Origin: Synergistaceae bacterium
Lineage (GTDB): Bacteria > Synergistota > Synergistia > Synergistales > Aminobacteriaceae
Length of the DNA: 43,570 nucleotides
Reading direction: 5' to 3'
Assembly: GCA_031272035.1 (NCBI GenBank)
Contig: JAISUO010000115.1
Location: forward strand, 1 to 43,570
The notes under the pieces are model-generated. The model searched no databases, was not told the origin of the DNA, and was given only the letters and a program-made list of their open reading frames with translations. This document shows positions 450 to 17,576 of the stretch, piece after piece. Numbering within the stretch: position 1 is the first letter of the stretch; every line of letters starts with the position of its first letter. The translations under genes were made by a program, and so were the position numbers.

Positions 450-1637
450 TTACTGACGAAGCCCATCCAGCCAGTCAGCCCACGCCTGCATCATCTCCCG
501 ACGTTCGGGCAGCCTCTCCGCGTGATTGTAGGCGGCACGAACCGCGTTGCTTTCCACATGCGAGAGGGACAACTCCACCACATCGCGATTCCATCCCTGT
601 TCGTTCAGGTTGGTGGAAGCGAGGGCGCGGAAGCCGTGAGCGGTCATCTGCTCCCTCGTGTATCCCATCGACCGGAGCGCCACGAGGATTGTGTTCTCGG
701 ACATGGGAATCTTTTTTGAGCGGATCGTCGGAAAAACGAAAGACGAATCGCCCGTCAGGGGAGAGAGGCGCTGCAGCAGTTCCAAAACCTGACGGGACAA
801 GGGGACGACGTGGGGCAGTCCGTTCTTCATGCGTTCATCGGGAATACGCCAGAGTTTTGCGTCAAAATCCATCTCTTCCCATGCCGCGCCTCGTATTTCT
901 CCCGGACGTTGGAAAGTGTAAAGTGAAAACCACAAAGCAAGCCGAACGACAATGCTTCCGTTGTAAGCCTCAATGCGCGTCATCAGGTCCGCTATGTCTT
1001 TTGGCGCGGTCAGAGCCGCGAAATGACGCTTTTGCCTTGGCTTCAACGCTCGCTTGAGGTTCTGTGTGATGTCGAGATCGGCGTCGCCCCGCGCTATGGC
1101 GAACTGAAAAACCTGTCCGATGATGATCTTTGATTTATACGCGGTTTCGGGCGTCCGCAATTCTATGTTCAAAAGCAGGTTCAAAACTTCCTGCGTCGTT
1201 ATTTCCCTGAGAGGACGATCTCCAAGTTTTGGGAGGAGATAGGCCCTCAGTTTATGGCTCACGTCCGTACAGTGGGAAGCGGACCAGCTTCCTTTCTGTT
1301 GGGCATACCACTCTTCCGCGACTTTGGCGAAGGTCGTGGATTTGATCACTTCCGCTCTGGCCGCGGCCTCTTTCTCGGCTCGTTTCCTTTCCTGCGGATT
1401 ACCGCCCAGGGCAAGTTCGCGCTTGAAAGCGTTCTTCAAATCCCTCGCGTCGGCCAATCCGATCACAGGATACTTCCCCAGTCCGGCGCGCTTTTCCTTT
1501 CCGCCTGTCCAGTACCTGAGAATCCAACTTTTCGCGCCGGTGCTTTTGATTAAAAGAAGAAGCCCGTCGCCGTCGGAAAGAGAATAATCTTTTTCACGAG
1601 CCTTCGCGCTTCTGATGGCTGTTTCCGTCAGGGTCAT
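450..1637 (-). CDS. int: P4-type tyrosine integrase
   Basis: Site-specific recombinase of 395 residues, expected to insert and excise the element at the neighbouring tRNA-Ser gene. The N-terminal 90 residues match the arm-binding domain (DUF4102) of P4-family integrases, followed by a core-binding helical domain and the catalytic domain. The active-site set is complete: Arg244 (in QRPGEIRG), His334 and Arg337 (in HGFR), His360 (in LSHVE) and nucleophile Tyr370. The ATG at 1637 is chosen because a GGGAGG sequence lies 7 bases before it; an ATG eight codons upstream lacks a binding site and falls inside a CCGTACA repeat. The gene reads away from the 3' end of the tRNA, the usual arrangement in tRNA-integrated islands. 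Confidence 0.93.
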   Translation of the reverse strand: MTLTETAIRSAKAREKDYSLSDGDGLLLLIKSTGAKSWILRYWTGGKEKRAGLGKYPVIGLADARDLKNAFKRELALGGNPQERKRAEKEAAARAEVIKSTTFAKVAEEWYAQQKGSWSASHCTDVSHKLRAYLLPKLGDRPLREITTQEVLNLLLNIELRTPETAYKSKIIIGQVFQFAIARGDADLDITQNLKRALKPRQKRHFAALTAPKDIADLMTRIEAYNGSIVVRLALWFSLYTFQRPGEIRGAAWEEMDFDAKLWRIPDERMKNGLPHVVPLSRQVLELLQRLSPLTGDSSFVFPTIRSKKIPMSENTILVALRSMGYTREQMTAHGFRALASTNLNEQGWNRDVVELSLSHVESNAVRAAYNHAERLPERREMMQAWADWLDGLRQ

Positions 1638-1653
1638 TTTCAATCCCTCCCAA

Positions 1654-1854
1654 CCGTACATCGTTTTTTTCGTACACCGTACATCAGGACATTCTCAACC
1701 GTACATCATTCGTTTTCACCGTACAGCGAAAGCCCCGCTACCGTACAGCGAGTTTGCCTCGCAGGGCTTTGCAGCCACCGCCTAAAATCATTTTACCGTA
1801 CAACAAAAAGAGTTGGAAGTCCCTTCATAAAGTAATGTACGGTTCAATGTACGG
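1654..1854. repeat. CCGTACA iteron array between int and the tRNA
   Basis: Six exact CCGTACA copies in one orientation start at 1654, 1677, 1699, 1719, 1741 and 1796. Two inverted copies (TGTACGG) start at 1836 and 1848, and a degenerate copy lies at 1670-1676. The first five are 20-23 bp apart, about two helical turns, so they lie on one face of the DNA. The first is only 17 bp from the int start codon. Likely roles are arm-type binding sites for the integrase or its excisionase, or operators controlling int; the sequence does not decide between them. Confidence 0.8.
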
Positions 1855-1908
1855 TTGCAGTCTTGAAAAGGGTATATTTGGTCAGAAAATCACAGACACA
1901 TGAAAAGC

Positions 1909-1936
1909 AAAAACCCCGCTTTTCAGCGAGGTTTTT
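1909..1936 (-). terminator. Rho-independent terminator of tRNA-Ser, possibly bidirectional
   Basis: An inverted repeat of A-run, CC, then CGC pairs with GCG, GG and T-run around a six-base loop, with one C/A mismatch. Read on the minus strand it lies 42 bases past the tRNA 3' end and its stem ends in a run of Ts. The symmetric A and T tracts would let it work in both directions. Confidence 0.65.
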
Positions 1937-1977
1937 CGACTTCCTTGGACTTGTTCAAACTCTCTTTGGTCAAAAAC

Positions 1978-2020
1978 TGGCGGAGACGTAGAGATTCGAA
2001 CTCTAGGAGCATTGCTGCTC
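1978..2020. other. Probable attachment site (att) in the tRNA-Ser 3' half
   Basis: Integrases of this family usually recombine within the 3' half of a tRNA gene and restore it with sequence carried by the element. The integrase and its iterons lie directly on the 3' side of this intact tRNA. The partner direct repeat would be left of base 1 and cannot be seen, so the exact core is not known. Confidence 0.5.
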
Positions 2021-2065
2021 AGACGCTCTCCAAGCGCCCGCCTTCGACCACTCGGCCACGTCTCC
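1978..2065 (-). tRNA. tRNA-Ser(GGA)
   Basis: On the minus strand the sequence folds into a complete class II tRNA: acceptor GGAGACG/CGUCUCC, D-arm GCC/GGC, anticodon stem GGCGC/GCGUC with loop UUGGAGA, a long variable arm typical of serine tRNAs, T-arm UAGAG/CUCUA, discriminator G and an encoded CCA. The anticodon GGA is at 2029-2031 on the plus strand (tcc). It reads UCC and UCU codons. Its 3' half is the probable integration target of the adjacent element. Confidence 0.96.
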
Positions 2066-2081
2066 GCAAAAAACAGAAGCA

Positions 2082-2087
2082 ATTATA
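2082..2087 (-). promoter_or_regulatory. -10 element of the tRNA-Ser promoter
   Basis: On the minus strand a perfect TATAAT lies 16 bases before the mature tRNA 5' end. The -35 region 17 bases further upstream (TTCCCT) is poor. The rest of the 2066-2406 gap shows only AT-rich sequence here and the promoter of the next gene. Confidence 0.55.
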
Positions 2088-2350
2088 CACGAGGCATCCC
2101 AATTAGGGAAGCGGGTATTTTTTATTTCAAAAAAAGTTTTGCTCTGTCAGGAGTTTTTTGACTGCAGGATGTCAGAGGGCACTGATTATAGAAGAGACTT
2201 GCAATCTCCCTGCCTCTGGCATAAACTGCTGATATTTGTTCCGGACTCGGTCTCTTTCTGTTTTCTTTTTCTGTCTGTTTTGAGGAAATCGCAGCGATGA
2301 GATTGGGTCGGCGCCTGTACGGATGGACGTTGAATGCCCTCCCGTGATGC

Positions 2351-2378
2351 GTGACGCGGAGAGGCTGACGCATATAAT
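2351..2378 (+). promoter_or_regulatory. Sigma-70-type promoter of the FAH-family gene
   Basis: A perfect TATAAT at 2373-2378 is preceded by GTGACG at 2351-2356 (four of six bases match TTGACA) with a 16-bp spacer. It would start transcription near 2385, just before the GGAGG that precedes the ATG at 2407. Confidence 0.6.
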
Positions 2379-2406
2379 CGTCAAATCGTGGGAGGAACCG
2401 GAAGCT

Positions 2407-3204
2407 ATGAAAGGAATGAACGTGAACGGCGTCGATATGTCAGGGTTGAAGGAGGGGACGCTGTTTGTCCGCTTCGAGAAGGACGGGGAGATCCGCTGCG
2501 GGCGGCTCGCGGACGGCGTGGTGGAGGAGCTGGGGGGAAACTCTCCGACGGGGAAAAAATATGACCTGAAAGATCTGACGCTCATGACGCCGCTGGATCC
2601 CGTCAAAATCTGGTGTATCGGCCTGAACTATCGCGAACATGCGAAAGAAGCGAATATGAAGATACCCGAAGAGCCCTGCATTTTTATGAAACCCCGAACC
2701 TGTCTGATCGCTCCGGAGAAGGCCATCCGTCTTCCTTCCTGGACGGGAAGGGTGGATTACGAGGGAGAGCTTGCCGTCGTCATCGGAAAAAACTGTCGGA
2801 ACGTAAGCGAGGAAAACGCGACGGAGTACGTCCTGGGCTATTCCTGTTTCAACGACGTATCCGCGAGAGTCCTGCAGCACAAAGACGGGCAGTGGATCCG
2901 ATCCAAGGGTTTCGACACCTTCGGCCCCTTCGGCCCGGCTCTTCTGGTGACGAAAAAGATGCCGGACAGCGCGAAGCTGACGACGCGCCTGAACGGCAAA
3001 GTCGTACAGCAGGGACATTTTGGAGACATGATTTTTTCCGTTTCCGCCATTGTCGCCTGTCTCAGTCGTTTTGCCACTCTGGAACCGGGAGACGTCATCG
3101 CCACCGGCACGCCCAGCGGTGTGGGGCCGCTCAGCCCGGGAGACACGGTCGAAATCGAAACAGAGGGCGTTGGCATCCTCAAAAATCCCGTTGCGGGGGA
3201 GTGA
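2407..3204 (+). CDS. Fumarylacetoacetate hydrolase (FAH) family protein
   Basis: A 265-residue enzyme of the FAH superfamily, whose members hydrolyse, decarboxylate or isomerise 2-oxo and beta-diketo acids using a divalent metal. Visible landmarks are the CIGLNYREHAKE segment, the metal ligands in DYEGELAVVIGK and the Asp of FNDVSAR, the KGFDTFGPFGP loop, and the GTPSGVGPL motif near the end. Start: the ATG at 2407 has GGAGG 11 bases upstream and lies after a TATAAT promoter; an ATG at 2323 would lie upstream of that promoter and has no binding site. The substrate cannot be told from the sequence or the neighbours. It is the first gene on the chromosome side of the tRNA. Confidence 0.88.
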   Translation: MKGMNVNGVDMSGLKEGTLFVRFEKDGEIRCGRLADGVVEELGGNSPTGKKYDLKDLTLMTPLDPVKIWCIGLNYREHAKEANMKIPEEPCIFMKPRTCLIAPEKAIRLPSWTGRVDYEGELAVVIGKNCRNVSEENATEYVLGYSCFNDVSARVLQHKDGQWIRSKGFDTFGPFGPALLVTKKMPDSAKLTTRLNGKVVQQGHFGDMIFSVSAIVACLSRFATLEPGDVIATGTPSGVGPLSPGDTVEIETEGVGILKNPVAGE

Positions 3205-3252
3205 CCCCTGAATAAAATATGATAATCTTATAGCGTCACGGTCCGGTGGCGG

Positions 3253-3295
3253 AAAATGAAGTCGAAAAATGAAATCAGGAAATGAAATATGGAAA
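3253..3295 (+). repeat. Short imperfect direct repeats at a gene junction
   Basis: Three copies of an AAAATGAA(G/A)T-like unit start at 3253, 3265 and 3279, followed by a decayed fourth. They fill part of the 199-bp gap between the FAH gene and the helicase. No gene or convincing promoter is seen in this gap. Confidence 0.55.
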
Positions 3296-3403
3296 TTGCT
3301 GTGTAAAAATTGTTACGTAAACTTGGAGGCCAAAAATCGACGGAATTCCGGCGGATGAAAGTTTCGGAAAGAGTGTGGTTTCAGGCCTGAGGGAGTTCCG
3401 AAT

Positions 3404-4981
3404 TTGGAAAAGATTGAATTTTACGGGTGGCAGCTGGAGGCTTACTCCCGCATAAAGGAGGAAAGCGCGGTGTTGTCCGCCCCCACCGGCGCGGGAAAAA
3501 CCCTGGTGGCCTATCTCTGGGCGGGGCTGCTGGATGAAGAGGGCAATGTTACGCAGCCCACAGCGGGACGAGTGATTTTTACGGCTCCCATCAAGGCTCT
3601 GAGCAACGAACGGTACATGGATCTGAGGCGGATGGGTTTCGACGTGGGCATCGAGACCGGCGATTTCAAGCGCAACGAAGGCGCCCGGATTATCTGCTGC
3701 ACTCAGGAAATTTACACGATGAAGTACACGGGACAGCCGGGACAAATGCTGATTGTGGACGAATTTCATTACATCTTCAACGATTCGGATCGGGCCCGGA
3801 CCTACATCGACGGAATAAGAGGCACCCATAAGGATACGTCGATTCTTGTGATGTCCGCGACTCTCGGTGGAGTGAAAGCCGTTGGGCGTTATCTCTCGGA
3901 AAGCTGTTCCCGTCACTTTGTGATCTACGAAAGCCGGGAGCGGATGACCCGTCTGATTTTCACGCCGGATAAACCGGCGGAGCTTCGCGGAGTGCACGAT
4001 GCGCTGCTTTTTTTATTTTCGCAGAAGGGTGCTTCCGATTTGGCTTTCAGTGTCGCGAGAACCCGCCGTCGGCTGGAGCGGAGACAGTTGGATCGGCTGA
4101 ACGAACTGGCCGAAATTTTGGAAGTGACAAAGATAGCGCCGCCTCTTTTGAATGGAGTGGGGATTTATCACGGAGGAATGTTCCCCAAGGAAAAACTGCT
4201 GGTGGAGTCCGCCTTTCGGGAACGCATTCTGGACGTGGTCTGTGGAACGAACGCTCTGGCCCTGGGGGTGAACCTTCCCGCTCAGTCCGTCGTATTCGCC
4301 CAGCTGGTCCAATACCATCACGACGAACCCATCACGAGGAACGAGTTTTTGCAGATGGCCGGGCGGGCCGGGCGGAAGGGGCTTTTCGACCCCGGATTCG
4401 TCACCTGGCTGGCGGATTCTCCCTTCGAGCGCCGGGGCTTCAATACGGGAGAGGTCTTTAAAATGCTGGCGGACGGTTCTCCGGAGCCGGCTGCCGTAAC
4501 TCTGCGCCCCTCTTATGGTCGGCTGCTGCGAAAACAGGTTCTGTTCGAGGTGGAGGCCGAATATATTGCCGAGTACTCCCTGCCTCGGGCGAACATCGCT
4601 CTCGTGACCAACTTTTTGCACGCGGGGCTGAAAAAGATCGACCGGGTCGTGCGCAAACTGATGCACGGCAGCGACCGCAATCGTTATCGCTCGATACTCG
4701 CCGCGATATGGTACGATGAAATGGAAATCGATGAAAACCTGGAAATGGCGATGCTCTTTTTCGAGGAAGCGACGCCCAGCGCGCTGCTGGCGGCTCAGAT
4801 GATTCTGCCCTATGAACGCAACTATCTGCAGGCGCTTCTGAAGGTGAAGCGTTTTTCCAATCATCTGCCGAAGGGGTATCGCTTCCGGGCGATGGACGAA
4901 CTGAACGACACGGTGGACGAAATCGATCCGACGATTTATGGTTTCGAGGAAAAACTGGGCGAGATCGAGACGAGCAGATGA
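3404..4981 (+). CDS. Ski2-like DEAD/DEAH-box helicase
   Basis: A superfamily 2 ATP-dependent helicase of 525 residues. Motif I is SAPTGAGKT (residues 25-33), motif Ia is APIKALSNER, motif II is DEFH (from Asp119), motif III is SAT, motif V is in the GTNALALGVNLPA segment and motif VI is QMAGRAGRKG (from Gln317). The DEFH box and the motif VI wording place it near Ski2/Hel308-type enzymes rather than RecQ or RhlE. The C-terminal 150 residues have no domain I can name. Start is a TTG at 3404 with GAGGGAG about 9 bases before it. It is shorter than archaeal and eukaryotic Ski2 proteins; RNA or DNA as substrate is not decided. Confidence 0.85.
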   Translation: MEKIEFYGWQLEAYSRIKEESAVLSAPTGAGKTLVAYLWAGLLDEEGNVTQPTAGRVIFTAPIKALSNERYMDLRRMGFDVGIETGDFKRNEGARIICCTQEIYTMKYTGQPGQMLIVDEFHYIFNDSDRARTYIDGIRGTHKDTSILVMSATLGGVKAVGRYLSESCSRHFVIYESRERMTRLIFTPDKPAELRGVHDALLFLFSQKGASDLAFSVARTRRRLERRQLDRLNELAEILEVTKIAPPLLNGVGIYHGGMFPKEKLLVESAFRERILDVVCGTNALALGVNLPAQSVVFAQLVQYHHDEPITRNEFLQMAGRAGRKGLFDPGFVTWLADSPFERRGFNTGEVFKMLADGSPEPAAVTLRPSYGRLLRKQVLFEVEAEYIAEYSLPRANIALVTNFLHAGLKKIDRVVRKLMHGSDRNRYRSILAAIWYDEMEIDENLEMAMLFFEEATPSALLAAQMILPYERNYLQALLKVKRFSNHLPKGYRFRAMDELNDTVDEIDPTIYGFEEKLGEIETSR

Positions 4982-5041
4982 TGCCAGTTTGGCGGGAAGA
5001 TCGCCTGATTTGGCGCCCCTGAGCCTGAGCGATTTCTTTCG

Positions 5042-5064
5042 GGACGGGAAAATTCCCCGAGTCC
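5042..5064 (+). promoter_or_regulatory. Imperfect palindrome before iadA
   Basis: GGAC-GGGAA at 5042-5050 pairs with TTCCC at 5053-5057 and GTCC at 5061-5064, with a three-base bulge. It lies 22 bp before the iadA start, just ahead of the ribosome binding site. It could be an operator or an mRNA hairpin. There is no T-run, so it is not a standard terminator. Confidence 0.3.
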
Positions 5065-5086
5065 TGAACGTTTTGGAGGAGAATTC

Positions 5087-6292
5087 ATGGAACCTGTGGT
5101 CCTGCTTTTGAAAAACGGAGATCTGTATTCTCCCGACTATGTGGGGGTCGTGGACGTTCTTGTCCTGAACGGAAAGATCGCCATGATCGGGAGAGGGCTC
5201 GATTTCAACTGTACCGGTCTCGACGTGAAGGTTCTGAACCTGCGGGGAATGCATCTGGTCCCGGGGTTCATTGACAATCACGTTCATATCATTGGCGGCG
5301 GCGGCGAAGCCGGGTTCCACAGTCGAACCCCGGAGGTGATGCTGTCCTCCATAACGCAGAGCGGCATAACGACCGTGGTGGGCGTAATCGGCACCGACGG
5401 GACCACCCGCCACCTGGAAACGCTTCTGGCGAAGGCGAGGGCGCTGACCCAGGAGGGCATAACGGCCTACATCTACACCGGATCCTACGAACTGCCCCTG
5501 ATCACCCTGACGGGGTCCACGCGGCGCGACATCGTCCTTATCGACGAGGTGATCGGCACGGGAGAAATAGCGATTTCCGATCATCGCTCCTCTGTTCCCA
5601 CCGTCGAAGAGCTGACCCGTATCGCCTCGGATACCCGGGTGGGCGGCATGCTCTGCGGCCGGACGGGAGTGCTGAACCTGCATATGGGCGGAGGCAGGGA
5701 GGGATTCAGCAATATTTTCAGAGTGCTGAAGGACACGGAAATTTCCATTCGACATTTTTTGCCGACCCACATCACGCGCAGCCGGGATCTTTTTGAACAG
5801 GCGAAAATTTTCGCGACCCTGGGCGGCACCATCGATATGACCGCCGAAATGGACGAAGCCCACGGATTTGCCGGAGCCATTGGAATCAGCGACGCCGTGA
5901 ACTCCTGTCTCGAAAACGGTATCCCCATCGAAAATATCACCATCAGCTCCGACGGCAACGGCAGTATGGCCGTTTTCGACCGGGAGGGACAGGTGAAGCG
6001 CCTCATCGTCACGAAGCTGAACGGCCTGTACAACGAGCTGAAGGCGCTGGTCGTCAGCGGACTGGACCTCTCCGCGGCTCTTCGCCCCATCACCTCCAAC
6101 GTGGCGAGGGCTCTGGGGCTTCCCGAAAAAGGCCGCATCGCCGTGGGCTGTGACGCTGACATCACGGTTCTCGACGGCGACATGCAGGTAAACGCCGTTA
6201 TCGCCAGAGGCCGGATGATGGTGGAGGGGGGACTCCCCGTGGTGAAGGGAACTTTCGAGGACCTGAACGACGAGCGGGATTCCGCGGAATGA
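5087..6292 (+). CDS. iadA: Isoaspartyl dipeptidase (beta-aspartyl peptidase)
   Basis: A 401-residue member of the amidohydrolase superfamily that splits isoaspartyl dipeptides formed from damaged or degraded protein. The metal-binding His-x-His is in DNHVHIIGGGGE, followed by the family block AISDHRSS, LPTHITR, and the catalytic-Asp region ISSDGNGS; the C-terminal beta-sandwich closes with KGTFEDL as in E. coli IadA. A GGAGGAG binding site precedes the ATG. In E. coli the two metals are bridged by a carbamylated Lys within VIGVKCAISDHRS; here the same stretch reads VIGTGEIAISDHRS, so a Glu seems to take its place. The role may be peptide recycling in an amino-acid-fermenting organism (inference). 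Confidence 0.92.
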   Translation: MEPVVLLLKNGDLYSPDYVGVVDVLVLNGKIAMIGRGLDFNCTGLDVKVLNLRGMHLVPGFIDNHVHIIGGGGEAGFHSRTPEVMLSSITQSGITTVVGVIGTDGTTRHLETLLAKARALTQEGITAYIYTGSYELPLITLTGSTRRDIVLIDEVIGTGEIAISDHRSSVPTVEELTRIASDTRVGGMLCGRTGVLNLHMGGGREGFSNIFRVLKDTEISIRHFLPTHITRSRDLFEQAKIFATLGGTIDMTAEMDEAHGFAGAIGISDAVNSCLENGIPIENITISSDGNGSMAVFDREGQVKRLIVTKLNGLYNELKALVVSGLDLSAALRPITSNVARALGLPEKGRIAVGCDADITVLDGDMQVNAVIARGRMMVEGGLPVVKGTFEDLNDERDSAE

Positions 6293-6381
6293 TTTTTTGG
6301 GCGCCTCTCAGGCCCGAAGTCTTCTGAGGTCCCCGCTGAAAGAAAACAGGACTGAACTGAAAATATGACTGAGCCGAAGAC

Positions 6382-7884
6382 ATGACCAAGCCCAATATAG
6401 CGGCCATTTTGAAAAACCTTCCCGACCGGCCCGGCGTGTATATCATGCGGAACGCCGAAGGAGAAGTCCTTTATGTCGGTAAAGCCAAACGCCTGAAACG
6501 CAGAGTTTCCTCCTATTTCCGCCACTCGAATTTCGCCTCGCCGCGTCTGCGGAAGCTGGTGGAACTTGTGGAGGACATTTCCATTCTCAGAACCGACAGC
6601 GAGGCTGAAGCCCTGATCGTGGAGAGCAGACTTATCCGGCGCTATTCCCCGTTTTTCAACGTGGACCTCAAAATGTCCGATCGCTACCCCTGGATTCGCA
6701 TCACGAACGAACCCTTCCCCCGCCTGGCGGTGACCCGCAAAAAAGAGGAGGACGGCTCGGCGTATTTCGGCCCTTACGTGAGCGCGGGCAACATTCGCAC
6801 CCTCCTGCGCCTGGTCGAGCGCTACTTTCCCCTGAGGTCCTGCCGGATGGAAATTCTGAAGGGGAAACCCGACCGGCGTCCCTGTATCGAGCACGCTCTC
6901 GGACGCTGCATGGGGCCCTGCGCGGATCTTTGCACCGAGGGAGAGTACCGGGAACGGGTAAACGACGTTATCCTGCTGCTGCAGGGGCATACCGCCGAAC
7001 TGGTGGAGCGCATGAGACGGCGAATGGACGCGGCGGCGAAAGTCATGGCCTTCGAGGAGGCAGCCCGTTACCGCGATACCATCCGGGCGGTGTGGAAAGT
7101 TTCCCGGCAGCGCGTTTCTGCGACTTTACAGGAGGATCTGGATTCGGAAACCTGGCAGGTTCTGGTTCACCTGCAGGAGACGTTCGGTTTGAAAACGCTT
7201 CCCTGGAGGATCGACGCTTTCGACATCTCCCACATGTCGGGACATGAGACCTACGGCTGCTGCATCGTATTCGAGCAGGGGAAGCCCAACCCCTCGCTCT
7301 ATCGCCGCTTTAAAATACGTTCTCTGGCGGAAAACGAGATCGATGACTTTCGGTCGATTCAGGAAACGGTTCTGCGTCGCTACCGTCATCTGCTGGACCA
7401 CGCCGAGCCCCTGCCGCAGTTCACCGTCATCGACGGAGGGCCGGTACAGCTTGAATTCGCGATGAAGTCCTTCGAGGAGCTGAAGCTGGACATTCCCGTC
7501 GTTTCCCTGGCCAAACAGGAAGAGCTGGTTTTTCTCCCCGGCCGTCCCGAACCTCTGCGGCTGTCCTTCGACGACCCCGTTCTGAAATTGCTTCAGCGTC
7601 TGAGGGATGAAGTTCACCGCTACGCCATCACCACCCACCGCAACGCGAGAGCCGGTCGTCTTCGCCGATCCGCCCTGGAGGAAATTCCCGGAATCGGCAA
7701 AAACCGGGCGGCTCAGCTCATCGTAAAATTTGGAAGCGTTCAGCGCATCGCCCGGCTCACTCCCGAAGAACTCGGCGCGGTCCCCGGACTGGGAAAGGCC
7801 CTCGCGCAAAAAATCGTCGACCATCTCAGAGGGGAACGAAAAGGCGAAGAAAATCCGGAGGAAAACACGCGTCACGAAGTATAA
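6382..7884 (+). CDS. uvrC: Excinuclease ABC subunit C, shortened form
   Basis: Nuclease of nucleotide excision repair, acting with UvrA and UvrB to cut on both sides of a lesion. Domains in order: GIY-YIG nuclease (residues 13-95, GVYIMRNAEGEVLYVGKAK), Cys-rich segment, UVR motif that binds UvrB (about 206-240), RNase H-like nuclease starting at Asp281 (DISH) with further catalytic residues in DDFRSI, VIDGG and the His of RDEVHRYAITTHR, and two helix-hairpin-helix motifs at the C-terminus. At 500 residues it is about 110 shorter than E. coli UvrC. The loss is between UVR and RNase H: about 41 residues here against about 160. All four catalytic positions of the second nuclease remain. The binding site before the ATG is weak. 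Confidence 0.93.
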   Translation: MTKPNIAAILKNLPDRPGVYIMRNAEGEVLYVGKAKRLKRRVSSYFRHSNFASPRLRKLVELVEDISILRTDSEAEALIVESRLIRRYSPFFNVDLKMSDRYPWIRITNEPFPRLAVTRKKEEDGSAYFGPYVSAGNIRTLLRLVERYFPLRSCRMEILKGKPDRRPCIEHALGRCMGPCADLCTEGEYRERVNDVILLLQGHTAELVERMRRRMDAAAKVMAFEEAARYRDTIRAVWKVSRQRVSATLQEDLDSETWQVLVHLQETFGLKTLPWRIDAFDISHMSGHETYGCCIVFEQGKPNPSLYRRFKIRSLAENEIDDFRSIQETVLRRYRHLLDHAEPLPQFTVIDGGPVQLEFAMKSFEELKLDIPVVSLAKQEELVFLPGRPEPLRLSFDDPVLKLLQRLRDEVHRYAITTHRNARAGRLRRSALEEIPGIGKNRAAQLIVKFGSVQRIARLTPEELGAVPGLGKALAQKIVDHLRGERKGEENPEENTRHEV

Positions 7885-7930
7885 TATTCTCTGTGACATA
7901 AAATGTTTTGCTCGGTCGGACCGAAGCGAA

Positions 7931-9055
7931 ATGGAGCTGTGTAATGCGATGGTGTCAAAACGCGGACTGGATGAATATGGAATGAGCCGCGCGCTGTCTC
8001 TGGCCCGACGGGGGATGGACGGAGCCTGCCCCAATCCCATGGTGGGCTGCGTTCTCATGAAGGACGGGCGCGTCGTGGGCGAGGGGTGGCATGCCCGCTG
8101 CGGCGGCGACCACGCGGAAATCGCCGCTCTGAAAAACGCGGCGGCCAGGGGAGAAACAGTCCGCGGAGCTACGGCCTTCGTCACGCTGGAACCCTGTTCT
8201 CACTTTGGAAAAACTCCTCCCTGCGCGCCCCGGCTGGTGGAAGAAGGCATTGCCCGTGTGGTCGTCGGAACGACCGACCCCAACCCGAAGGTGAACGGCG
8301 CCGGTATAGAAATACTGAAAAATGCCGGAGTGGAAGTTTCCGTTCCCTGTCTGGAGGAGGAATGCCGGTGGCTGAACCGCGGGTTCATTCGAAGCAAAAC
8401 CCTCTCGCGTCCGTGGATCACCCTGAAGGCCGCTTTGGGGCTGGATGGAAGAATGGCGGTCAAGAGCGGGGAAAGCAACTGGATTACGGGGACGACGGCG
8501 CGAGTGTGGGCTCATCTTCTGCGCTCCGGGCATCAGGGGCTTCTGGTCGGCGCGGGAACGATCCTGCGGGACGATCCTGAACTGACGGTGCGCCACACTT
8601 GCGGGAAATCGCCTTTACGCATAATATTGGATACTGATCTTTCGACGTCTCCGGAAGCGAAGGCCCTGCGGGGAGGGTGCCTCGTTCTGACCTGCAGCGA
8701 AAACGCGGAAAGAAAACATCGCCTGGAGGCTGCGGGGGCAGAGGTTTGCCTCGTTCCGCGAAAGGACGGGCGTGTTGATCTGAAAGCCGCCCTGAGGGAG
8801 ATTGCTTCCCGGGACGTACAGATGCTGATGGTGGAGGGCGGCCCGACGGTTCTGTCGTCTTTTATGCGCGAGGAACTGTGCGACGCCGCGGCCTTTTTCG
8901 TCTCGGGGGTCCTGATGGGTTCCGGCCCCGGCCCGGCCGACGGGCTGAGCTTCGAGTCCATGAAGGACGCGGCGCGCCTGAAAAATCTGCGGGTGCGTCG
9001 GGTGGACGGCGATATGCTTGTGGAGGGAGTTTTTCGATGTTCACCGGACTTGTAG
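7931..9055 (+). CDS. ribD: Bifunctional riboflavin deaminase/reductase
   Basis: Second and third steps of riboflavin synthesis: deamination of the pyrimidine, then reduction of its ribosyl side chain. The N-terminal deaminase has the zinc site HAE (His61) and PCSHFGKTPPC (Cys89 and Cys98); the C-terminal reductase begins at PWITLKAALGLDGRMA and contains SNWITG and the MVEGGPT motif. Start is uncertain: ATG 7931 gives 374 residues, while an in-frame ATG at 7949 has GGAG 12-13 bases before it. The 46 bp after uvrC are too short for an FMN riboswitch. The last 19 bp overlap ribE, pointing to translational coupling. Confidence 0.93.
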   Translation: MELCNAMVSKRGLDEYGMSRALSLARRGMDGACPNPMVGCVLMKDGRVVGEGWHARCGGDHAEIAALKNAAARGETVRGATAFVTLEPCSHFGKTPPCAPRLVEEGIARVVVGTTDPNPKVNGAGIEILKNAGVEVSVPCLEEECRWLNRGFIRSKTLSRPWITLKAALGLDGRMAVKSGESNWITGTTARVWAHLLRSGHQGLLVGAGTILRDDPELTVRHTCGKSPLRIILDTDLSTSPEAKALRGGCLVLTCSENAERKHRLEAAGAEVCLVPRKDGRVDLKAALREIASRDVQMLMVEGGPTVLSSFMREELCDAAAFFVSGVLMGSGPGPADGLSFESMKDAARLKNLRVRRVDGDMLVEGVFRCSPDL

Positions 9056-9681
9056 AGGCGGTGGGGACGGTGCGGGATCTTCGAAGGACGGGAAGCGTTT
9101 TTCGTCTTTCTCTGGAGTGTCCCCGACTGGCTCCGGAGCTGTTTTTTGGTCAGTCCGTGGCGGTCAGCGGCGCCTGCCTGTCCGTGGTGGCCCTCCAGGG
9201 CAATGTCTTCGAGGTGGAGATGATGCCCGAAACGGCCGATCGAACTCGTTTTTCCACCCTTGCCAGAGGAAGCCGGGTCAACCTGGAACGGGCCCTGCGC
9301 CTGGGAGACCGACTGGACGGTCATCTGGTTCTGGGTCATGTGGACGGAACGGCGACGGTGCGGGACATCACCGGATCGCGAGAGACAAAAAAAGCCTGGT
9401 TTCGGACGTCGGAGGACGTCATGCGTACAATTGTGGCGAAGGGGTCCGTGGCGGTGGATGGAGTCAGCCTGACGGTCATTGACGCGGAGTCCGGAGGTTT
9501 TTCCGTGGGACTGATCCCGACCACTCTGAAGAACTGCACGCTGGGACAGCTTGAAGCGGGAGAAACAGTGAACGTGGAAACAGATATAATTGGCAAGTAT
9601 GTAGAGAAGCTGCTGGCGCTTCGACCTTTGAAAGGAAGCGGCGGCCTGACTTTGGAGGAGCTGGGCAATCTTGGATACTGA
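9037..9681 (+). CDS. ribE: Riboflavin synthase, alpha subunit
   Basis: Last step of the pathway: two lumazine molecules are dismutated to riboflavin and a pyrimidine. The 214-residue protein shows the two lumazine-binding barrels of the family, starting at [10 protein letters not shown] and at the [12 protein letters not shown] segment near residue 95. The ATG at 9037 is the family's standard N-terminus and has GGAGGGAG 7 bases upstream, inside the end of ribD. It overlaps ribBA by 11 bp. Confidence 0.95.
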
Positions 9682-10963
9682 AAAAACGGAGACGACTGCG
9701 CTTATTACCGGAAATCAGTGCAGCCCGGACGACTTCCCGGAGTCCGGAGACATTAAATTTGACCTCATTGAGGATGCGATAGAGGATATTCGTCAGGGGC
9801 GCATGGTGCTGGTGGTCGATGATGAAAACCGCGAAAACGAGGGTGACGTCGTTATAGCCGCCGTTCACGCGACGAAGGAACGGATCAATTTCATGGCCCG
9901 TTACGCCCGGGGGCTCATCTGCGCTCCCGTATCCCCTGAAATCGCCGAAAGGCTGCGTCTGGACCCTCTCACGCGAACGGGAAACGACAGGCATGGAACG
10001 GCCTTTCTGATGACGGTGGACGCCAGAGAGGGGACGACGACGGGAATTTCTGCGGAAGAACGAGCGCTCACGGCGCGGCTTTTGGCCTCTGACGCCGCGC
10101 GACCGGACGATTTTTACAGGCCGGGGCATCTGTTTCCTCTGGCCGCGAGAAGAGGCGGCGTCCTGAAGCGTGCCGGGCATACCGAGGCGGCCGTGGATCT
10201 GGCGCGCCTGGCGGGGCTGCCCCCGGCGGGGGTGATCTGTGAGGTGATGAAGGACGACGGCGCCATGGCCCGTCTGCCGGACCTGGCCTCTTTCGCGAAA
10301 CAGTACGGACTGAGGCTGATTTCGGTTCAGTCCCTCATCGCCTGGCGCAGCGCCAGGGAAAGGCTGATCGAAAAGGTGGTGGAGGTCAGTCTGCCGACGG
10401 AGTTCGGCAGCTTCAGAGCCCATGCCTATCGCAGCACTCTCGAAAACGACGATTCTCACACCCACATCGCCCTGGTGAAGGGGAGTATCGCGGCATCGGA
10501 TGAAGTTTTGGTCCGTGTGCACAGCGAATGCCTGACGGGGGACGTGTTCGGCTCTCTGCGCTGTGACTGCGGCCCCCAGCTTCACGCGGCTCTTTCCATG
10601 ATAGAAAGGGAGGGTGCGGGGGTTCTTTTGTACATGCGCCAGGAGGGACGAGGCATAGGAATTCTCAATAAACTGAAAGCATATAAACTGCAGGAGGAGG
10701 GACTGGACACCGTGGATGCCAACCTCGCTCTGGGGTACGCTCCGGACCTGCGGGATTACGGAATTGGAGCGCAGATTCTGATGGATTTGGGGCTTCGAAA
10801 GATTCGGCTTCTGACGAACAACCCCCAAAAGATCGTCGGACTTGAGGGCTACGGGCTCCAGATCGTCGATCGGGTTCCCCTCGTCATTCCGCCGAACGAG
10901 TTCAACAAAGGTTACATGGACGCCAAGGAAAGCCGGATGGGACATTTGTTGCATTCTCTGTAA
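9671..10963 (+). CDS. ribBA: 3,4-dihydroxy-2-butanone 4-phosphate synthase / GTP cyclohydrolase II
   Basis: Supplies both precursors of riboflavin. The RibB half (residues about 34-228) makes the four-carbon unit from ribulose 5-phosphate and shows [18 protein letters not shown] and [22 protein letters not shown]. The RibA half opens the GTP ring; its zinc ligands are in [20 protein letters not shown], followed by [16 protein letters not shown] and LTNNPQKI. Start is a TTG inside the end of ribE with GGAGGAG about 9 bases upstream. An N-terminal extension of about 30 residues has no family counterpart that I know. Both halves keep their key residues, so both are probably active. Confidence 0.95.
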
Positions 10964-11023
10964 GTCTCTGGCGTTCTCTTTAAGAAGAGCAGGGTGAAGG
11001 TAAAAATGAGGAGGAGGACCTGA

Positions 11024-11527
11024 ATGCGGGTGATCGAGGGCAAACTGATAGGAACAGGGCTCTCCGTGGCGATTGTGGTGTCGCGGTTCAATGAGCTGAT
11101 CTCCAATAAACTGCTGGAGGGGGCGAAGGACGTTCTCATACGTCACGACGTTTCTCACAGAGATATTGATATATACTGGGTTCCGGGGGCCTGGGAACTG
11201 CCGCTGGCGTCCAAGGAAGTCGCCCTTTCCGGGAAATACGACGCGATTATCGCCCTTGGAGCGGTTATTCGGGGAGATACGCCCCATTTTGACATGGTGG
11301 CCGGGGAGATGTCCAAGGGATTGGCTCAGACGGGCCTGGAACAGCGGGTTCCCGTTCTTTTTGGCGTGCTGACCTGCGACACTCTGGAACAGGCTTTGCT
11401 TCGGGCGGGGAGCAAGGCGGGGAACAAGGGCGCGGACTGCGCCACCGGCGCCATTGAAATGGCCAACCTTTTGAAAAATATTCGACTGGGAGAAAAAAAC
11501 AGGGAGAAGGAAAACGGGGATGCTTGA
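11024..11527 (+). CDS. ribH: 6,7-dimethyl-8-ribityllumazine synthase
   Basis: Condenses the products of RibB and RibD into lumazine, the substrate of riboflavin synthase; family members form hollow shells of 60 subunits or pentamers. The 167 residues show the substrate-binding VSRFNELI, the [11 protein letters not shown] segment, the phosphate site [12 protein letters not shown] with the catalytic His, and the [11 protein letters not shown] motif. GAGGAGG precedes the ATG. It closes the ribD-ribE-ribBA-ribH cluster and overlaps serS by 8 bp. Confidence 0.95.
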
Positions 11528-12791
11528 TCTCAAATGGGTCCTGGCAAATCAGGAAGAAGTAAAAACTTTTCTCGCGAACAGGAAACATGACTTCGATCTG
11601 CAGGCGCTGGTCGCCCTGGACGAAGAACGCCGGGCGCTCATCGTCGAAACCGAGGAACTGAAAGCCCGGCGCAACGAAGGCTCCAAAAAAGTGGGAGAGG
11701 CCCGACGGACGGGAGCCAACGCGGAGGCTCTGATGGAGGAGATTCGAGTCATCGGTGAGCGGGCGAAGGAGATCGACGGAAAGCTCTCCGATGTGGAAAC
11801 CAAAATCGAGGAGATCCTTCTGACGATGCCCAACAGGGTTCATGAGACGGTTCCCGTGGGGGAGGATGAAAACGCCAATCCCACGGTGCGCGTCTGGGGA
11901 GAGCCGGGGAAATTTCCCTTCGAACCCAAAGCCCACTGGGACCTGGGGGAAGCTCTGGGGATCATGGACTTCGAAAAGGGAGCTCTGCTGGCCCAGAGCC
12001 GTTTCACCGTGCTGAGGGGTATGGGCTCGCGAATGGAACGGGCGCTGATCTCCTTCATGCTGGACCTGCACACGACGCAGCACGGGTATACGGAAATGGA
12101 GCCGCCCTTTATGGTGGGATCGAAGATTTTGCGAGGCACGGGACAGCTTCCCAAGTTCGCGGAGGACCTTTATAAAATTGAAGGGGAGGACCTGTGGCTG
12201 ATCCCAACGGCGGAGGTTCCCCTGACCAACATGCATCACGGGGAAATCCTGGAGGAAAAGGCCCTTCCAAAGTACTACACGGCCTACACGCCCTGTTTCC
12301 GCAGAGAGGCCGGAGCCTACGGCCGCGATGTGCGGGGTATGCTGCGTCAGCATCAGTTTGACAAGGTGGAACTGGTGAAACTTTGTACGCCGGAGACGAG
12401 CTACGAGGAGCTGGAAAAGCTGACGGCCAACGCCGAGCGGGTTCTGCAGATTCTGGAGCTGCCCTATCGGGTCGTGTCGCTCTGTACGGGGGACATCGGC
12501 TTCGGGTCCGCGAAGACCTACGATTTGGAGGTTTGGCTGCCCTCTCAGGGAAAATATCGAGAGATCAGTTCCTGCAGTAACTGTGAGGATTTTCAGGCCC
12601 GGCGCATGAACACGCGTTATCGTCCCGCGGACGGCGGAAAACCCCGTTTTGTTCATACGCTGAACGGTTCGGGGATCGCGATTGGCCGCACGCTCATCGC
12701 TGTCATGGAAAACTATCAGCGGGAGGACGGAAGTATCGGAATTCCCTCCGCGCTGATTCCTTATATGAACGGCCTTACTGAAATCAGATAG
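11520..12791 (+). CDS. serS: Seryl-tRNA synthetase
   Basis: Charges tRNA-Ser, including the tRNA-Ser(GGA) of this window. The N-terminal 110 residues form the long antiparallel coiled coil that grips the variable arm of the tRNA. The class II catalytic core follows, with motif 2 at [20 protein letters not shown] and motif 3 at [18 protein letters not shown]. Length (423) is normal. The ATG lies inside the end of ribH. Its TAG stop is part of an 11-bp sequence repeated 30 bp downstream. Confidence 0.97.
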
Positions 12792-12826
12792 AAATTAATT
12801 TTAGAAAAAAATTTTAGATAGAAATT
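12786..12826 (+). repeat. 11-bp direct repeat around the serS stop codon
   Basis: AGATAGAAATT occurs at 12786-12796, where it contains the serS stop codon, and again at 12816-12826. The rest of this 64-bp gap is almost pure A and T. Confidence 0.6.
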
Positions 12827-12855
12827 CAGATTAAATTTGGAGGTGTCGCTTTCTG

Positions 12856-14610
12856 TTGATCGTTTCCTACAGTCCGGGAATAATCTGGGGGTGCATCGGG
12901 GCGGCTGCCCTTTGCGTCGGGGTTCAGTTTTTGACGAAAAGATTTCTTGAAGAGCGTCAGTATGCTTATCTGCGCGATCTTCTTCTGGTTGGAACATGGC
13001 TGCACCTGGCACTTTGTTTCGGGTCGCCGATGTCCCGCTTTGTTCTGGGGGCGTCCGTCTTCGCGGGAGTGTTCGGTCTGGCGGAGCATTTGTGGCCTGA
13101 GCGTTCCTGGTGGTGGGGATATGTTCTGATCGGCTTTTTGTGCGCGACGCTGGGGCCTGTGATCAGTTTCATCACTTTGCTCGACGGAGAATACATCTAT
13201 CTGACGCCTCTGGTGTCCGTCGTGGTCACTACCCTGTGGTTTGCGATTTTTCCCCTCATCGTCCGGCAGCTGGACGCCATTCCGGGACTGGCGGGGCATA
13301 TTCTGGCGGTGACGTTTTCCCTGATGCTGATCTCCGTGGCCCTCACCTCTCAGGAAATGCCGGACGCCTTCTTCATGTCCTTTTCCGGCCTGCTGCTTCT
13401 CGGCGCGTTCTGGAGCCGTTTCAGCAATCTCTATCGTCAGGCGGGAAAGGCCCTGTCGGCCTTTTGGGGGACGCTGGTGGCGGGAACGGCGATTCTGGGC
13501 GTGAGCAAGGGGATCGTTTTCGGCTCCATGTTTTATCTTTCGCTGGGGCTGTTCGCCATTCCCATGGTGGAGTGTTCCCTGCATCTGGCGAGCCTGGTGC
13601 TGGCCGAAAACTCGCCGGGCACGGAGCGGATCTACCGGGGGCTGATCCGGCGGGGATGGGACCATCCCGACGTGGTGCGGCTCATCTCCTGGCTGTGCGC
13701 GTTCCTGGGGGTGCTGTCCGCTCTGTGGCAATATCCCTCTCCCGGTTACGCCACGCTGGTGTGGGGGGGGATTATGGTCATGGTCTCTCTGGTCGTTCTG
13801 GTTCCGCTGTTTCTGAAGTACCGGAACACGTCCCCCATGATCCACACGAAGCCGCGTCTTTGGGGTATCCATATCGACAACGTATCGATGAATTACGCCC
13901 TTTCCAGGGCCAGAGGGATGGTTTTGTCTCAGAAGGGAATGAAACTCGTGTCCACCGTCAATGCCCTGGGGATGGAAATGGCGGTTCAGGATCCGGAATA
14001 TCACGCCGTTTTGAGATACTCGGCTCTGGTTTTGTCGGATGGAGTCGGCCTTCTGTGGGGACTGCGCTTTCTCGGAATGCCCATTCAGGAGCGCGTCACG
14101 GGAATCGACTTCGCGGAGCAGCTCTGCCGGATGGCCTCAGTGGAGGGCTGGCCGGTGTATTTTCTGGGGGCACGGGGCAATACGGCCCGACGCTGCGCCG
14201 ACGTTCTTGCGGAGCGTTATCCCGGTCTCGTGGTGGCCGGAGCCCGCAACGGGTACTTCAGCATGGACGATCCCTCGGTGGCTTCTGAAATCGCCCGTTC
14301 GGGAGCAAAAATTCTTTTTGCCGCCATGGGAATTCCCCGCCAGGAAAAATGGCTTTCCCGCCACGGAAACGCCTTGGGCGACGTGCTTGCGGTGGGGGTG
14401 GGCGGCGCTTTTGACGTTCTGTCCGGACAGTTGAGGCGAGCTCCGCGAGCGATGCAGAAAATGGGGCTTGAATGGCTTTATCGACTTTGCCAGGAACCCT
14501 CCCGCTGGAGGAGAGACCTGAGACTGGCGGTTTTCGTTCTGCGCGTCCTGGCGACGCGACTGGGGCTCTACACCTGGAAGCAGACGACGCGGAAGGGGGA
14601 AAAGAGATGA
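12856..14610 (+). CDS. Membrane-fused WecG/TagA/CpsF-family glycosyltransferase
   Basis: A 584-residue fusion. Residues 1-325 form about ten hydrophobic segments with short charged loops and no family I can name. From about residue 334 it is a GT26 (WecG/TagA/CpsF) transferase, which typically adds an N-acetylmannosamine-like sugar to a lipid-linked carrier. Thr367 (VSTVNA) and Asp395 (LSDGVG) are 28 apart, matching catalytic Thr37 and Asp65 of Thermoanaerobacter TagA. The C-terminal Arg-rich appendage (QEPSRWRRDL) used in membrane docking is also present. Start is TTG 12856 with GGAGGTG 10 bases upstream. It probably acts in surface glycan assembly at the inner face of the membrane; the acceptor is unknown. 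The stop overlaps the next start. Confidence 0.85.
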   Translation: MIVSYSPGIIWGCIGAAALCVGVQFLTKRFLEERQYAYLRDLLLVGTWLHLALCFGSPMSRFVLGASVFAGVFGLAEHLWPERSWWWGYVLIGFLCATLGPVISFITLLDGEYIYLTPLVSVVVTTLWFAIFPLIVRQLDAIPGLAGHILAVTFSLMLISVALTSQEMPDAFFMSFSGLLLLGAFWSRFSNLYRQAGKALSAFWGTLVAGTAILGVSKGIVFGSMFYLSLGLFAIPMVECSLHLASLVLAENSPGTERIYRGLIRRGWDHPDVVRLISWLCAFLGVLSALWQYPSPGYATLVWGGIMVMVSLVVLVPLFLKYRNTSPMIHTKPRLWGIHIDNVSMNYALSRARGMVLSQKGMKLVSTVNALGMEMAVQDPEYHAVLRYSALVLSDGVGLLWGLRFLGMPIQERVTGIDFAEQLCRMASVEGWPVYFLGARGNTARRCADVLAERYPGLVVAGARNGYFSMDDPSVASEIARSGAKILFAAMGIPRQEKWLSRHGNALGDVLAVGVGGAFDVLSGQLRRAPRAMQKMGLEWLYRLCQEPSRWRRDLRLAVFVLRVLATRLGLYTWKQTTRKGEKR

Positions 14611-15074
14611 AGGTCACGACAGTGGGAGACCTGATGGCCCGGGATTTGACGATGGTGATGGAATCCAGCACCATTGGAGAGGCCATCGATATTTTTTACC
14701 ACCATCACGTTTCGGGGCTGCCGGTCGTCAGCGCGGACTGGAAGCTGGTGGGCTATCTTTCGGAGACGGACATTCTGAAGGCCGCCACGCCCTCCTATCT
14801 GGAGGTGCTCACTCACAGCGCCTTCATGAGCGGAGAAGAGGACGAGTTCGTTCGTCAGCTCAAAAACCTGGGACACCTTTCCGTGCGGGACTATATGACG
14901 AAATCTCCGGCCTTCGTGGAGCCCTGGGTGAGCCTCGTGTCCGCCGCGGATCTGATGATACGGAAGCATTTTCATCGCCTTCCCGTGGCGGAGGAGGGTG
15001 TTTTGGTGGGGATCATCGACCGCCGGACGCTGTGGGATTTTATGCTGGAAGAATATTATCGCGATGAAAAGTGA
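14607..15074 (+). CDS. CBS-domain pair protein
   Basis: A 155-residue protein made of two CBS motifs (about residues 6-60 and 92-150), the pair that commonly binds adenine nucleotides such as AMP or ATP and relays energy status. Typical CBS wording is visible: VSGLPVV followed by LVGYLSETDI, and RLPVAEEGVLVGIIDRR. It has no attached catalytic or DNA-binding domain. The ATG overlaps the stop of the glycosyltransferase gene (ATGA), and its own end overlaps the first V-ATPase gene by 11 bp, so it is translationally linked to that operon. A role in sensing adenylate charge for the ATPase is attractive but is inference only. Confidence 0.85.
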   Translation: MKVTTVGDLMARDLTMVMESSTIGEAIDIFYHHHVSGLPVVSADWKLVGYLSETDILKAATPSYLEVLTHSAFMSGEEDEFVRQLKNLGHLSVRDYMTKSPAFVEPWVSLVSAADLMIRKHFHRLPVAEEGVLVGIIDRRTLWDFMLEEYYRDEK

Positions 15075-15441
15075 CCCTGTGAATGTTTCCGACCCGCTGC
15101 TTGCGGTGGGCAGGGAACTGGAGGCTTTTCGCGCGGAACTGGAGAAGGACGCGGAGGAGAAGAAAAGGGCCTTCATGCGTTTCAGAGGGGAGACCCTGCG
15201 TCGGGTGGACGAAATGTGCGGCCGCACGATTGAGGCCGCCCGGCTGGAGGAGCAGAGCGTGGAGTCCCGCATCGCCGAAGACAGAAAAGCCATCGACGCG
15301 CGTATCGATGGATGGCTGCGGCGTTCGTCCCTGGCCCTGGAGGAAAGCGATGCCCTGGATCGCATTGCCGGAGAAGCCCTTCACCGTCTCATGCCGCCCG
15401 GAACAGGAAAAATATCGGACAGGGGAGGTAGAGACTTCTGA
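15064..15441 (+). CDS. V-type ATPase peripheral stalk subunit (H/G-like)
   Basis: 125 residues, rich in Glu, Lys, Arg and Ala over the first 100 and predicted to be one long coiled coil. Small proteins of this kind pair with subunit E to make the peripheral stalk (NtpF in Enterococcus, AhaH in archaea). The assignment rests on composition and on its place directly before subunit I, the same as in the enterococcal ntpFIKECGABD order. The sequence itself is too low in complexity to prove the family. The start overlaps the CBS gene and the binding site is weak, suggesting translational coupling. Confidence 0.7.
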   Translation: MKSDPVNVSDPLLAVGRELEAFRAELEKDAEEKKRAFMRFRGETLRRVDEMCGRTIEAARLEEQSVESRIAEDRKAIDARIDGWLRRSSLALEESDALDRIAGEALHRLMPPGTGKISDRGGRDF

Positions 15442-17354
15442 TAGAACGCATGGCCCGCGTGTCCATATGGGGGGTACGCAGTAAAAAATCGGTTATTGTC
15501 GGTCGGCTCTACGAGCTTGGCGTGTTGCATCCCGTCTTTCGTTCCGTTTCCGCCGAAGAAAAAGAAGAGGACGGCGAAAAAAAGCATCCTCTGCTGGAAC
15601 GGCTCAGGACGCAAAGAGGACAGGTTTTGGGCATGATCGAAGCCCTGTCCTGGGATGGATGGAAGCAGCTCACGGATGTTTGTATCGAAAACGTTCGTTA
15701 CAATCTCTCCGGAGATCTGGAATTTATGATGGACGAAATCGACAGGAGCCTCGACCGGATTCAGCTGCGCCTGAACCGGATCCGGGAGGACGGGGAAAAG
15801 GCCCAGAGGGATTTCGTGGAACTTCGCAGGATCAATTCCATTCTGTCTCACGCCAATGCCTTTCTGGAGCAGGAGCGGTCCGCTTTGGGAGAGGTGGTGA
15901 TCTGGAAGCTTTCCCGGCAGGGACAGCACGCCGTCATCACGAAGATTAACGGGGATTTGGACCTTTTGCCCAGCGGGCACGAAAAACCCTGGTTTCGCTA
16001 CCATTCCTTCGATCTGAAGGACGGGTCCTCTTACATGGTTACCAGCGCCTCTCCGGAGGTTCAGCCCGGGCTGGCCGCGGCGGTTCACAACGTCCAGGGA
16101 ATCCGGTGGAATCTGCCGGCTCACTTCGAAGGCCTTTCCCTGGCGGATGTTGTCGCGCAGATTCGTCAGCTTTTGCGCGGTTTGCCGGCTCGGCTGAGGC
16201 AGAATAAAACGGAGCTGAGGGTGCTTTCCTCCCAGTGGGGAGTGAATCTGGCCGCTGTTTATGTTTTGCTGGACGAGCGTCTGGAGCAGTTTTTGCTGGA
16301 AGTTTCCGCCGAGGATAACGAGGAATTTTTCACCCTGGAGGGCTGGATTCCCGAAAATGCCGTGGAAAGAACCCGCACGGTCCTGAAGGAGGATTTCGGC
16401 GACGCCGTTCTGATGCGCGCCAGAGAGGCGAGAGGCGATCTGGACGGGACGATTCCCACGGCTTTGCGGAACCGGTCCATCTTTCAGCCCTTCGAGCTTT
16501 TTCTGAAGCTGCTGCGTATCCCCGACTATCATGCCTTCGACCCCACCCCTCTGATCGGAATATTTTTTCCTTTTTTTTCCGGTTGCATGATTGGGGATCT
16601 GGGGTACGGTGTTCTCATTCTGTGGCTGGGGTGGTATCTGAAGCAAAAGTCGTCGAAAATATCACACGACATAGGGATTATCCTTATTTTCGTCGCCTTC
16701 TGGAGCGGAGTATGGGGAATCCTGTTCGGGGAGTTTTTTGGAGATGTGGGGCACCGCCTCCTGGGCCTGTCCTGGATATGGGTGGACCGGGCCCACGCCG
16801 TTTTGCCCGTCATGATCTTCACGGTTACCCTGGGATGCGTTCATGTCCTTTTGGGGCTTTTGATCGGGATGATCCAGGGCATACGGAACCGGCATCGGCA
16901 TCTCTGGATGGAGCGCGCGGGCACGCTGCTTTTTATCGTGGGACTGATTGCTGTTCTGGTTCTACTGCGTATGCAGCTGCCTTCTTCGTTTTTTTCGATC
17001 CCCGTCGTTCTGCTCGTATTTTCCCTCATTTTTCTTCTGGGCGGCGGCGGTGTGGGAGGAATCGTGGAATCTCTGGGGGCCGTGGGGAACATCGTCAGTT
17101 ACGTGCGTATCGCCGCCATCGGTCTCTCGTCGGCCATTTTGGCCATGGTGGCGAGTAAATTTGTGGATACCGTTCAGATCCCCATCGTAGGGCTTTTTAT
17201 GGCGTTTGCCATTCACCTGCTGAATTTTGTTCTGGCCCTTGGGGGATCCGCTTTGCACGCGGCGCGGCTCCATTACGTGGAGTTCATGGGGAAATTTTAT
17301 GAGGACGGCACGCTTGCGTATAAACCGTTCGCAAAAAGGAGGAGAGTCGGATAA
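15438..17354 (+). CDS. ntpI: V-type ATP synthase subunit I (a-subunit)
   Basis: Stator membrane subunit that forms the ion half-channels against the K ring. The N-terminal half (to about residue 345) is soluble and helical; the C-terminal half has about eight membrane segments, starting after the hallmark DPTPLIGIFFPFFSGCMIGDLGYG. The essential Arg lies in SYVRIAAIGL (Arg557). Start choice: the first ATG, at 15450, has GGGGAGG 21 bases upstream, which is too far. A CTG at 15438 lies 9 bases from it, overlaps the previous stop as CTGA, and adds Leu-Ile-Glu-Arg before Met-Ala, restoring the family's usual N-terminus. A conservative annotation would use 15450. Confidence 0.92.
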   Translation: MIERMARVSIWGVRSKKSVIVGRLYELGVLHPVFRSVSAEEKEEDGEKKHPLLERLRTQRGQVLGMIEALSWDGWKQLTDVCIENVRYNLSGDLEFMMDEIDRSLDRIQLRLNRIREDGEKAQRDFVELRRINSILSHANAFLEQERSALGEVVIWKLSRQGQHAVITKINGDLDLLPSGHEKPWFRYHSFDLKDGSSYMVTSASPEVQPGLAAAVHNVQGIRWNLPAHFEGLSLADVVAQIRQLLRGLPARLRQNKTELRVLSSQWGVNLAAVYVLLDERLEQFLLEVSAEDNEEFFTLEGWIPENAVERTRTVLKEDFGDAVLMRAREARGDLDGTIPTALRNRSIFQPFELFLKLLRIPDYHAFDPTPLIGIFFPFFSGCMIGDLGYGVLILWLGWYLKQKSSKISHDIGIILIFVAFWSGVWGILFGEFFGDVGHRLLGLSWIWVDRAHAVLPVMIFTVTLGCVHVLLGLLIGMIQGIRNRHRHLWMERAGTLLFIVGLIAVLVLLRMQLPSSFFSIPVVLLVFSLIFLLGGGGVGGIVESLGAVGNIVSYVRIAAIGLSSAILAMVASKFVDTVQIPIVGLFMAFAIHLLNFVLALGGSALHAARLHYVEFMGKFYEDGTLAYKPFAKRRRVG

Positions 17355-17575: not shown

Positions 17576-17576
17576 C

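Follow-up and report, generated by a model that had tools for sequence, protein, structure and literature searches.

The window, i.e. the whole stretch of 43,570 bases that was analysed, carries an array of short repeats between a P4-type integrase gene (int, 450-1637, minus strand) and the 3′ end of a tRNA-Ser(GGA) gene (1978). The heptamer CCGTACA is found on the plus strand at positions 1654, 1677, 1699, 1719, 1741 and 1796, with gaps of 23, 22, 20, 22 and 55 bp, and on the minus strand at 1836 and 1848, 12 bp apart. The motif count confirmed the original prediction of six direct copies, five of them at 20-23 bp, and two copies on the opposite strand. Each of the eight copies extends to ACCGTACA, and this longer motif occurs in the window eight times, with every copy within 1653-1855, compared with a mean of 0.22 in shuffled sequences. 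The array was also thought to fill the space between the two genes; it does lie between them, but about 120 bp remain between its end and the 3′ end of the tRNA gene. The features of the locus, in window coordinates, are given below; L020, L065 and L081 are the loci of close relatives.

450-1637, minus strand: P4-type tyrosine recombinase Int, 395 aa (Pfam: Arm-DNA-bind_3, Phage_int_M and Phage_integrase)
1653-1660, plus strand: extra putative arm-type copy 1, in the int leader, 16 bp upstream of the start codon
1670-1676, plus strand: degenerate ninth copy, TCGTACA, with one mismatch
1676-1683, plus strand: extra putative arm-type copy 2
1698-1705, plus strand: extra putative arm-type copy 3
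1718-1725, plus strand: extra putative arm-type copy 4
1740-1747, plus strand: extra putative arm-type copy 5
1790-1795, minus strand: candidate int −10 box TAAAAT, weak, proposed from its sequence; abuts the 1796 copy
1795-1802, plus strand: inverted member of the predicted canonical P′ trio, kept in L020, L065 and L081 about 40 bp from the pair
1836-1843, minus strand: predicted canonical P′ pair, member 2
1848-1855, minus strand: predicted canonical P′ pair, member 1, 12 bp from member 2
1909-1936, minus strand: intrinsic terminator, element-borne, just inside the element end and downstream of tRNA-Ser
1976-1998, minus strand: predicted att core at the tRNA-Ser 3′ end, TGGCGGAGACGTAGAGATTCGAA; 23 bp identical at attR of the L065 element
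1978-2065, minus strand: tRNA-Ser(GGA), the attachment gene

The integrase has an Arm-DNA-bind_3 domain at its N-terminus and a tyrosine recombinase domain at its C-terminus (Pfam E-values of 7.9e-22 and 5.9e-24, respectively). The solved arm domains nearest to it are those of a CP4-like integrase (3jtz/3rmp) and 3ju0, with values of about 1e-16 for 3jtz and 3ju0. The start of Int is best placed at 1637, which corresponds to residue 1 of the homologs, and not at the ATG at 1661 of the open reading frame list. The copy at 1654 is therefore located upstream of int, and the earlier placement of the copies in the int upstream region, with this one preceding the start codon, agrees with the homologs. 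The promoter scan of the window detected none on the int strand. It missed the candidate TAAAAT box, which is also present in the corresponding region of L020 and is not conserved at the same place in the relatives.

The 12-bp direct pair 1848/1836 and the inverted copy at 1796 make up a trio. A 12-bp direct pair followed by an inverted copy was found in 54 of the 94 non-redundant regions upstream of related integrases, against expectations of 1.4 in shuffled sequences and 1.0 in real control DNA taken from these loci, and no other pair spacing exceeded 9 among the 94 regions. The two distal copies, described earlier as inverted, are indeed on the opposite strand, but they constitute the direct pair of the P4-type trio. 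One inverted copy is present in 43 of 48 clean trios; the window contains six and not the single one typical between the pair and int, and six is the most seen. Expanded sets of copies were also found in the more distant L044 and L071. As judged by the homology of layout, it is close to certain that the trio represents canonical arm sites. Two direct copies 12 bp apart and an inverted one ahead of int would mark P4-type arm sites despite the change of motif, and this rule allows arm sites, and hence attP, to be predicted from sequence for uncharacterised islands.

The motif itself appears to change together with the protein. Across 47 loci, motif dissimilarity was correlated with the divergence of the arm domain when catalytic divergence was controlled (partial r 0.27, p 0.0005), while the reverse comparison, with catalytic divergence and the arm domain controlled, gave a partial r of 0.10 (p 0.12). 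On modest and indirect grounds, it seems that the arm domain reads the motif, and the comparison yields a set of naturally varying arm domains, each with its target motif. It is very likely, from these sequence comparisons, that the array represents the P′ arm, on the attL side, of an integrative P4-type element in tRNA-Ser(GGA), and that ACCGTACA is the arm-type site of Int. The assignment of the copies to a recombination protein, made in the original prediction, is favoured by the P4-like trio, its recurrence among the homologs and the tracking of the arm domain by the motif.

The occurrence of arrays beside close integrase homologs had been set beforehand as a test, and equivalents with a slightly shifted motif were found in L065, L020 and L081. 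The L065 integrase is 75% identical, and its array, with the motif GTTATACGG, occupies the same place at the same tRNA-Ser. In L020 (71%) and L081 (65%) the array motif is TATACGG and the insertion is at tmRNA. Since the target differs (tRNA-Ser or tmRNA) and the array stays, the array is part of the integrase system rather than of the target. The exact CCGTACA is absent beside the genome-contig homologs first checked because the motif has drifted to CCGTATA; the arrays in relatives were revealed by seeking each locus's own repeats. A scan of viral contigs for three spaced CCGTACA gave 120 stretches, which were rejected as arm arrays: all but L170 lack a recognisable Int relative, and the copies of L170 are part of a regular short tandem repeat located well away from int on that contig.

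In L020, L065 and L081 the trio is set off from int, with the inverted copy about 40 bp from the pair, and extra leader copies are present, four in L020 and about two each in L065 and L081. The close relatives thus share the extra block of the int leader, which reaches its largest copy number in the window. The window's genome contains a second P4-type integrase, 43% identical (L018, G000:C70:411-1592 and upstream), at a tRNA-Lys in a seven-tRNA cluster, with an expanded array of its own that comprises nine TGTGGAC-like copies. Head-to-tail pairs of P4-type integrase genes, 60-71% identical to the window Int and with weak or no arm arrays, were observed in Synergistaceae MAGs (L021, L022, L023, L024 and L025, also L067-L070); no tRNA gene was found in loci L021-L025.

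Cores repeated at both element ends were found for L065 and L248 (23 bp, tRNA-Ser) and for L020 and L057 (tmRNA). The complete 16.4-kb element of L020, designated L064, has its tmRNA core repeated at the far end (L057), where TATACGG and TGTACGG lie 12 bp apart just inside the core. The 19-kb stretch contains six TATACGG copies, all of them at one or the other end of the element, and the DNA between the ends is motif-free except for one stray TGTACGG. The far end of the L065 element, L248, comprises the 23-bp tRNA-Ser core (attR, about 1575-1597) and two TTATACGG copies 12 bp apart. Both relatives, at L057 and L248, possess a second arm-repeat pair on the other (P) arm. The L064 element (1549-17900) encodes a MobA/VirD2 relaxase, a NikA-like protein, a DUF6088/AbiEi-like regulator, a WYL regulator and an SLFN_AlbA_2 protein, and therefore looks like an integrative mobilizable element. 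A truncated L065-type left end was also detected at a different gene, tRNA-Ser(CGA) (L247, 161-380), which suggests relaxed target choice among serine tRNAs.

An intrinsic terminator of its own, just inside the att core, is present at L020 (1223-1251) and at the equivalent places of L065 and L081. The left-end terminators of this clade may serve to restore termination of the invaded tRNA or tmRNA gene.

The remainder of the element is absent because the window begins at a contig end. The only CCGTACA tandem pair of the window's genome outside the array is located on contig C47 (59922-59940, spacing 12), about 60 bp from a tRNA-Ser-like 3′ end, TGGCGGAGAAGGTGGAG, and 2.1 kb from the end of C47. 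The C47 core departs from the tRNA-Ser(GGA) 3′ end after 9 bp. It is plausible from the sequence that this pair is the P arm of the window's element or of a sibling. A search of relatives for an empty site linking the C47 pair with the window's element gave no informative match. Immediately outside the candidate attR, C47 carries an ORF6N (phage antirepressor-like) gene (L254, 2348-2824), which suggests a second adjoining element.

It might be supposed that the five extra copies at 1654-1747 are a neutral tandem duplication and that only the trio matters. The flanks of neighbouring copies are alike (CCGTACATC three times, CCGTACAGCGA twice), which is compatible with duplication, and the number and spacing of the extra sites differ between relatives; however, the five 8-mers are all intact in DNA that has diverged between them, and the relatives all retain leader copies, which start about 51-57 bp away from the trio. 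This variant, which is compatible with the best explanation, seems somewhat unlikely. Far less credit can be given to the view that the copies are operators for an element-encoded repressor or a recombination directionality factor (RDF; Vis/TorI-like) controlling int, with Int bound elsewhere. The five extra copies do all run in the same direction, and RDF sites are often direct repeats in attL near the int promoter, the TorI sites being an example in the available part of the source (PMC2951348). Nevertheless, the extra copies are identical to those of the trio, whose layout matches the arm repeats of P4 Int, the motif varies between homologs in step with the Int arm domain, and the L064 proteins scanned included no recognisable AlpA-type RDF. 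That the array consists of iterons for replication of the excised circle is highly improbable: regular direct repeats look similar and the P4 crr repeats are close to attP, but the L064 motif stands at both ends beside the att cores with a single stray exception, none of the L064 proteins scanned was recognised as belonging to a replication initiator family, and the P4 origin repeats are distinct from the P4 arm repeats.

Of the six direct copies, five keep approximately the same helical phase (Rayleigh p of about 0.04 at 10.5 bp, a post hoc value), and the sixth is about half a turn out. The spacing of about two turns is a property of the window only; the relatives are irregular (55/18/15/13 in L020, 57/45 in L065), which lends no support to the originally proposed helical phasing as a design principle. 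Cooperative binding on one face of the DNA is not established because the phasing is marginal with five sites and the relatives are without it. Phasing of the pair-to-inverted distance across the family was considered and rejected (Rayleigh p 0.20).

Under the arm-site explanation, the N-terminal domain of Int would bind the ACCGTACA copies. The trio (1848, 1836 and 1796) and a second pair at the far end (P arm) would then form the intasome, in which Int would bridge arm and core sites for recombination, as in P4, KplE1 and ICEMlSymR7A. Int on the five copies at 1654-1747 would span its own promoter and leader, so that int would be repressed while the element is integrated; the five copies may also strengthen loading of the P′ arm. 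In these respects we infer the binding of Int to the copies, the repression of int and the role of the extra five. If the copies are arm sites, it is rather probable that the extra five autoregulate int. More tentatively, a separate multi-copy Int-binding array in the leader, distinct from the trio, could possibly act as an Int-concentration sensor by cooperative autorepression in the Synergistota integrase clade. The earlier idea that one protein could control both recombination and int fits the location of the putative Int arm sites upstream of int. The extra leader block offers a case in which the autoregulation of an integrase through multiplied sites could be tested.

The P4-type kind of arrangement is already known. 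The record of phage P4 (GenBank X51522) annotates five copies of an "attP arm sequence repeat": a tandem pair (3942-3953 and 3954-3965), an inverted copy at int (3915-3926), and a second tandem pair on the far side of the core (4151-4174). P4 and the window are alike in the 12-bp direct pair with an inverted copy beside int (P′ arm). An array of this regularity had been taken as unfamiliar for P4-type elements, but 1836/1848 and 1796 correspond to the canonical P4 trio, and the unusual part is the block of five further copies at 1654-1747 in the int leader. The window also differs from P4 in its motif (ACCGTACA instead of TTGGGGGCAT), in the position of the trio, about 150 bp back from int with the five extra copies between, and in its P arm, which is only a candidate (C47), whereas that of P4 is annotated.

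In ICEMlSymR7A, five IntS arm motifs in attP are all required for integration, and Int at attP limits intS transcription (PMC11963761). Its arm motif, TGKTGGTATC, differs from that of the window, and the available part of this source reports no extra leader array (PMC11963761). KplE1 (CPS-53) is unlike the window in its conserved arm motif TAAA and in the TorI RDF sites within the same attL, and an array resembling the extra block is not reported in the available part of its description (PMC2951348). The attL of KplE1 contains IntS arm sites overlapping the int promoter at the tRNA, with negative autoregulation, and Int represses its own gene in both KplE1 and P4 (PMC2951348). According to the same part of that work, autoregulation is predicted where int lies downstream of a tRNA gene and on its strand, and KplE1, like the window, has its tRNA and int on the same strand (PMC2951348).
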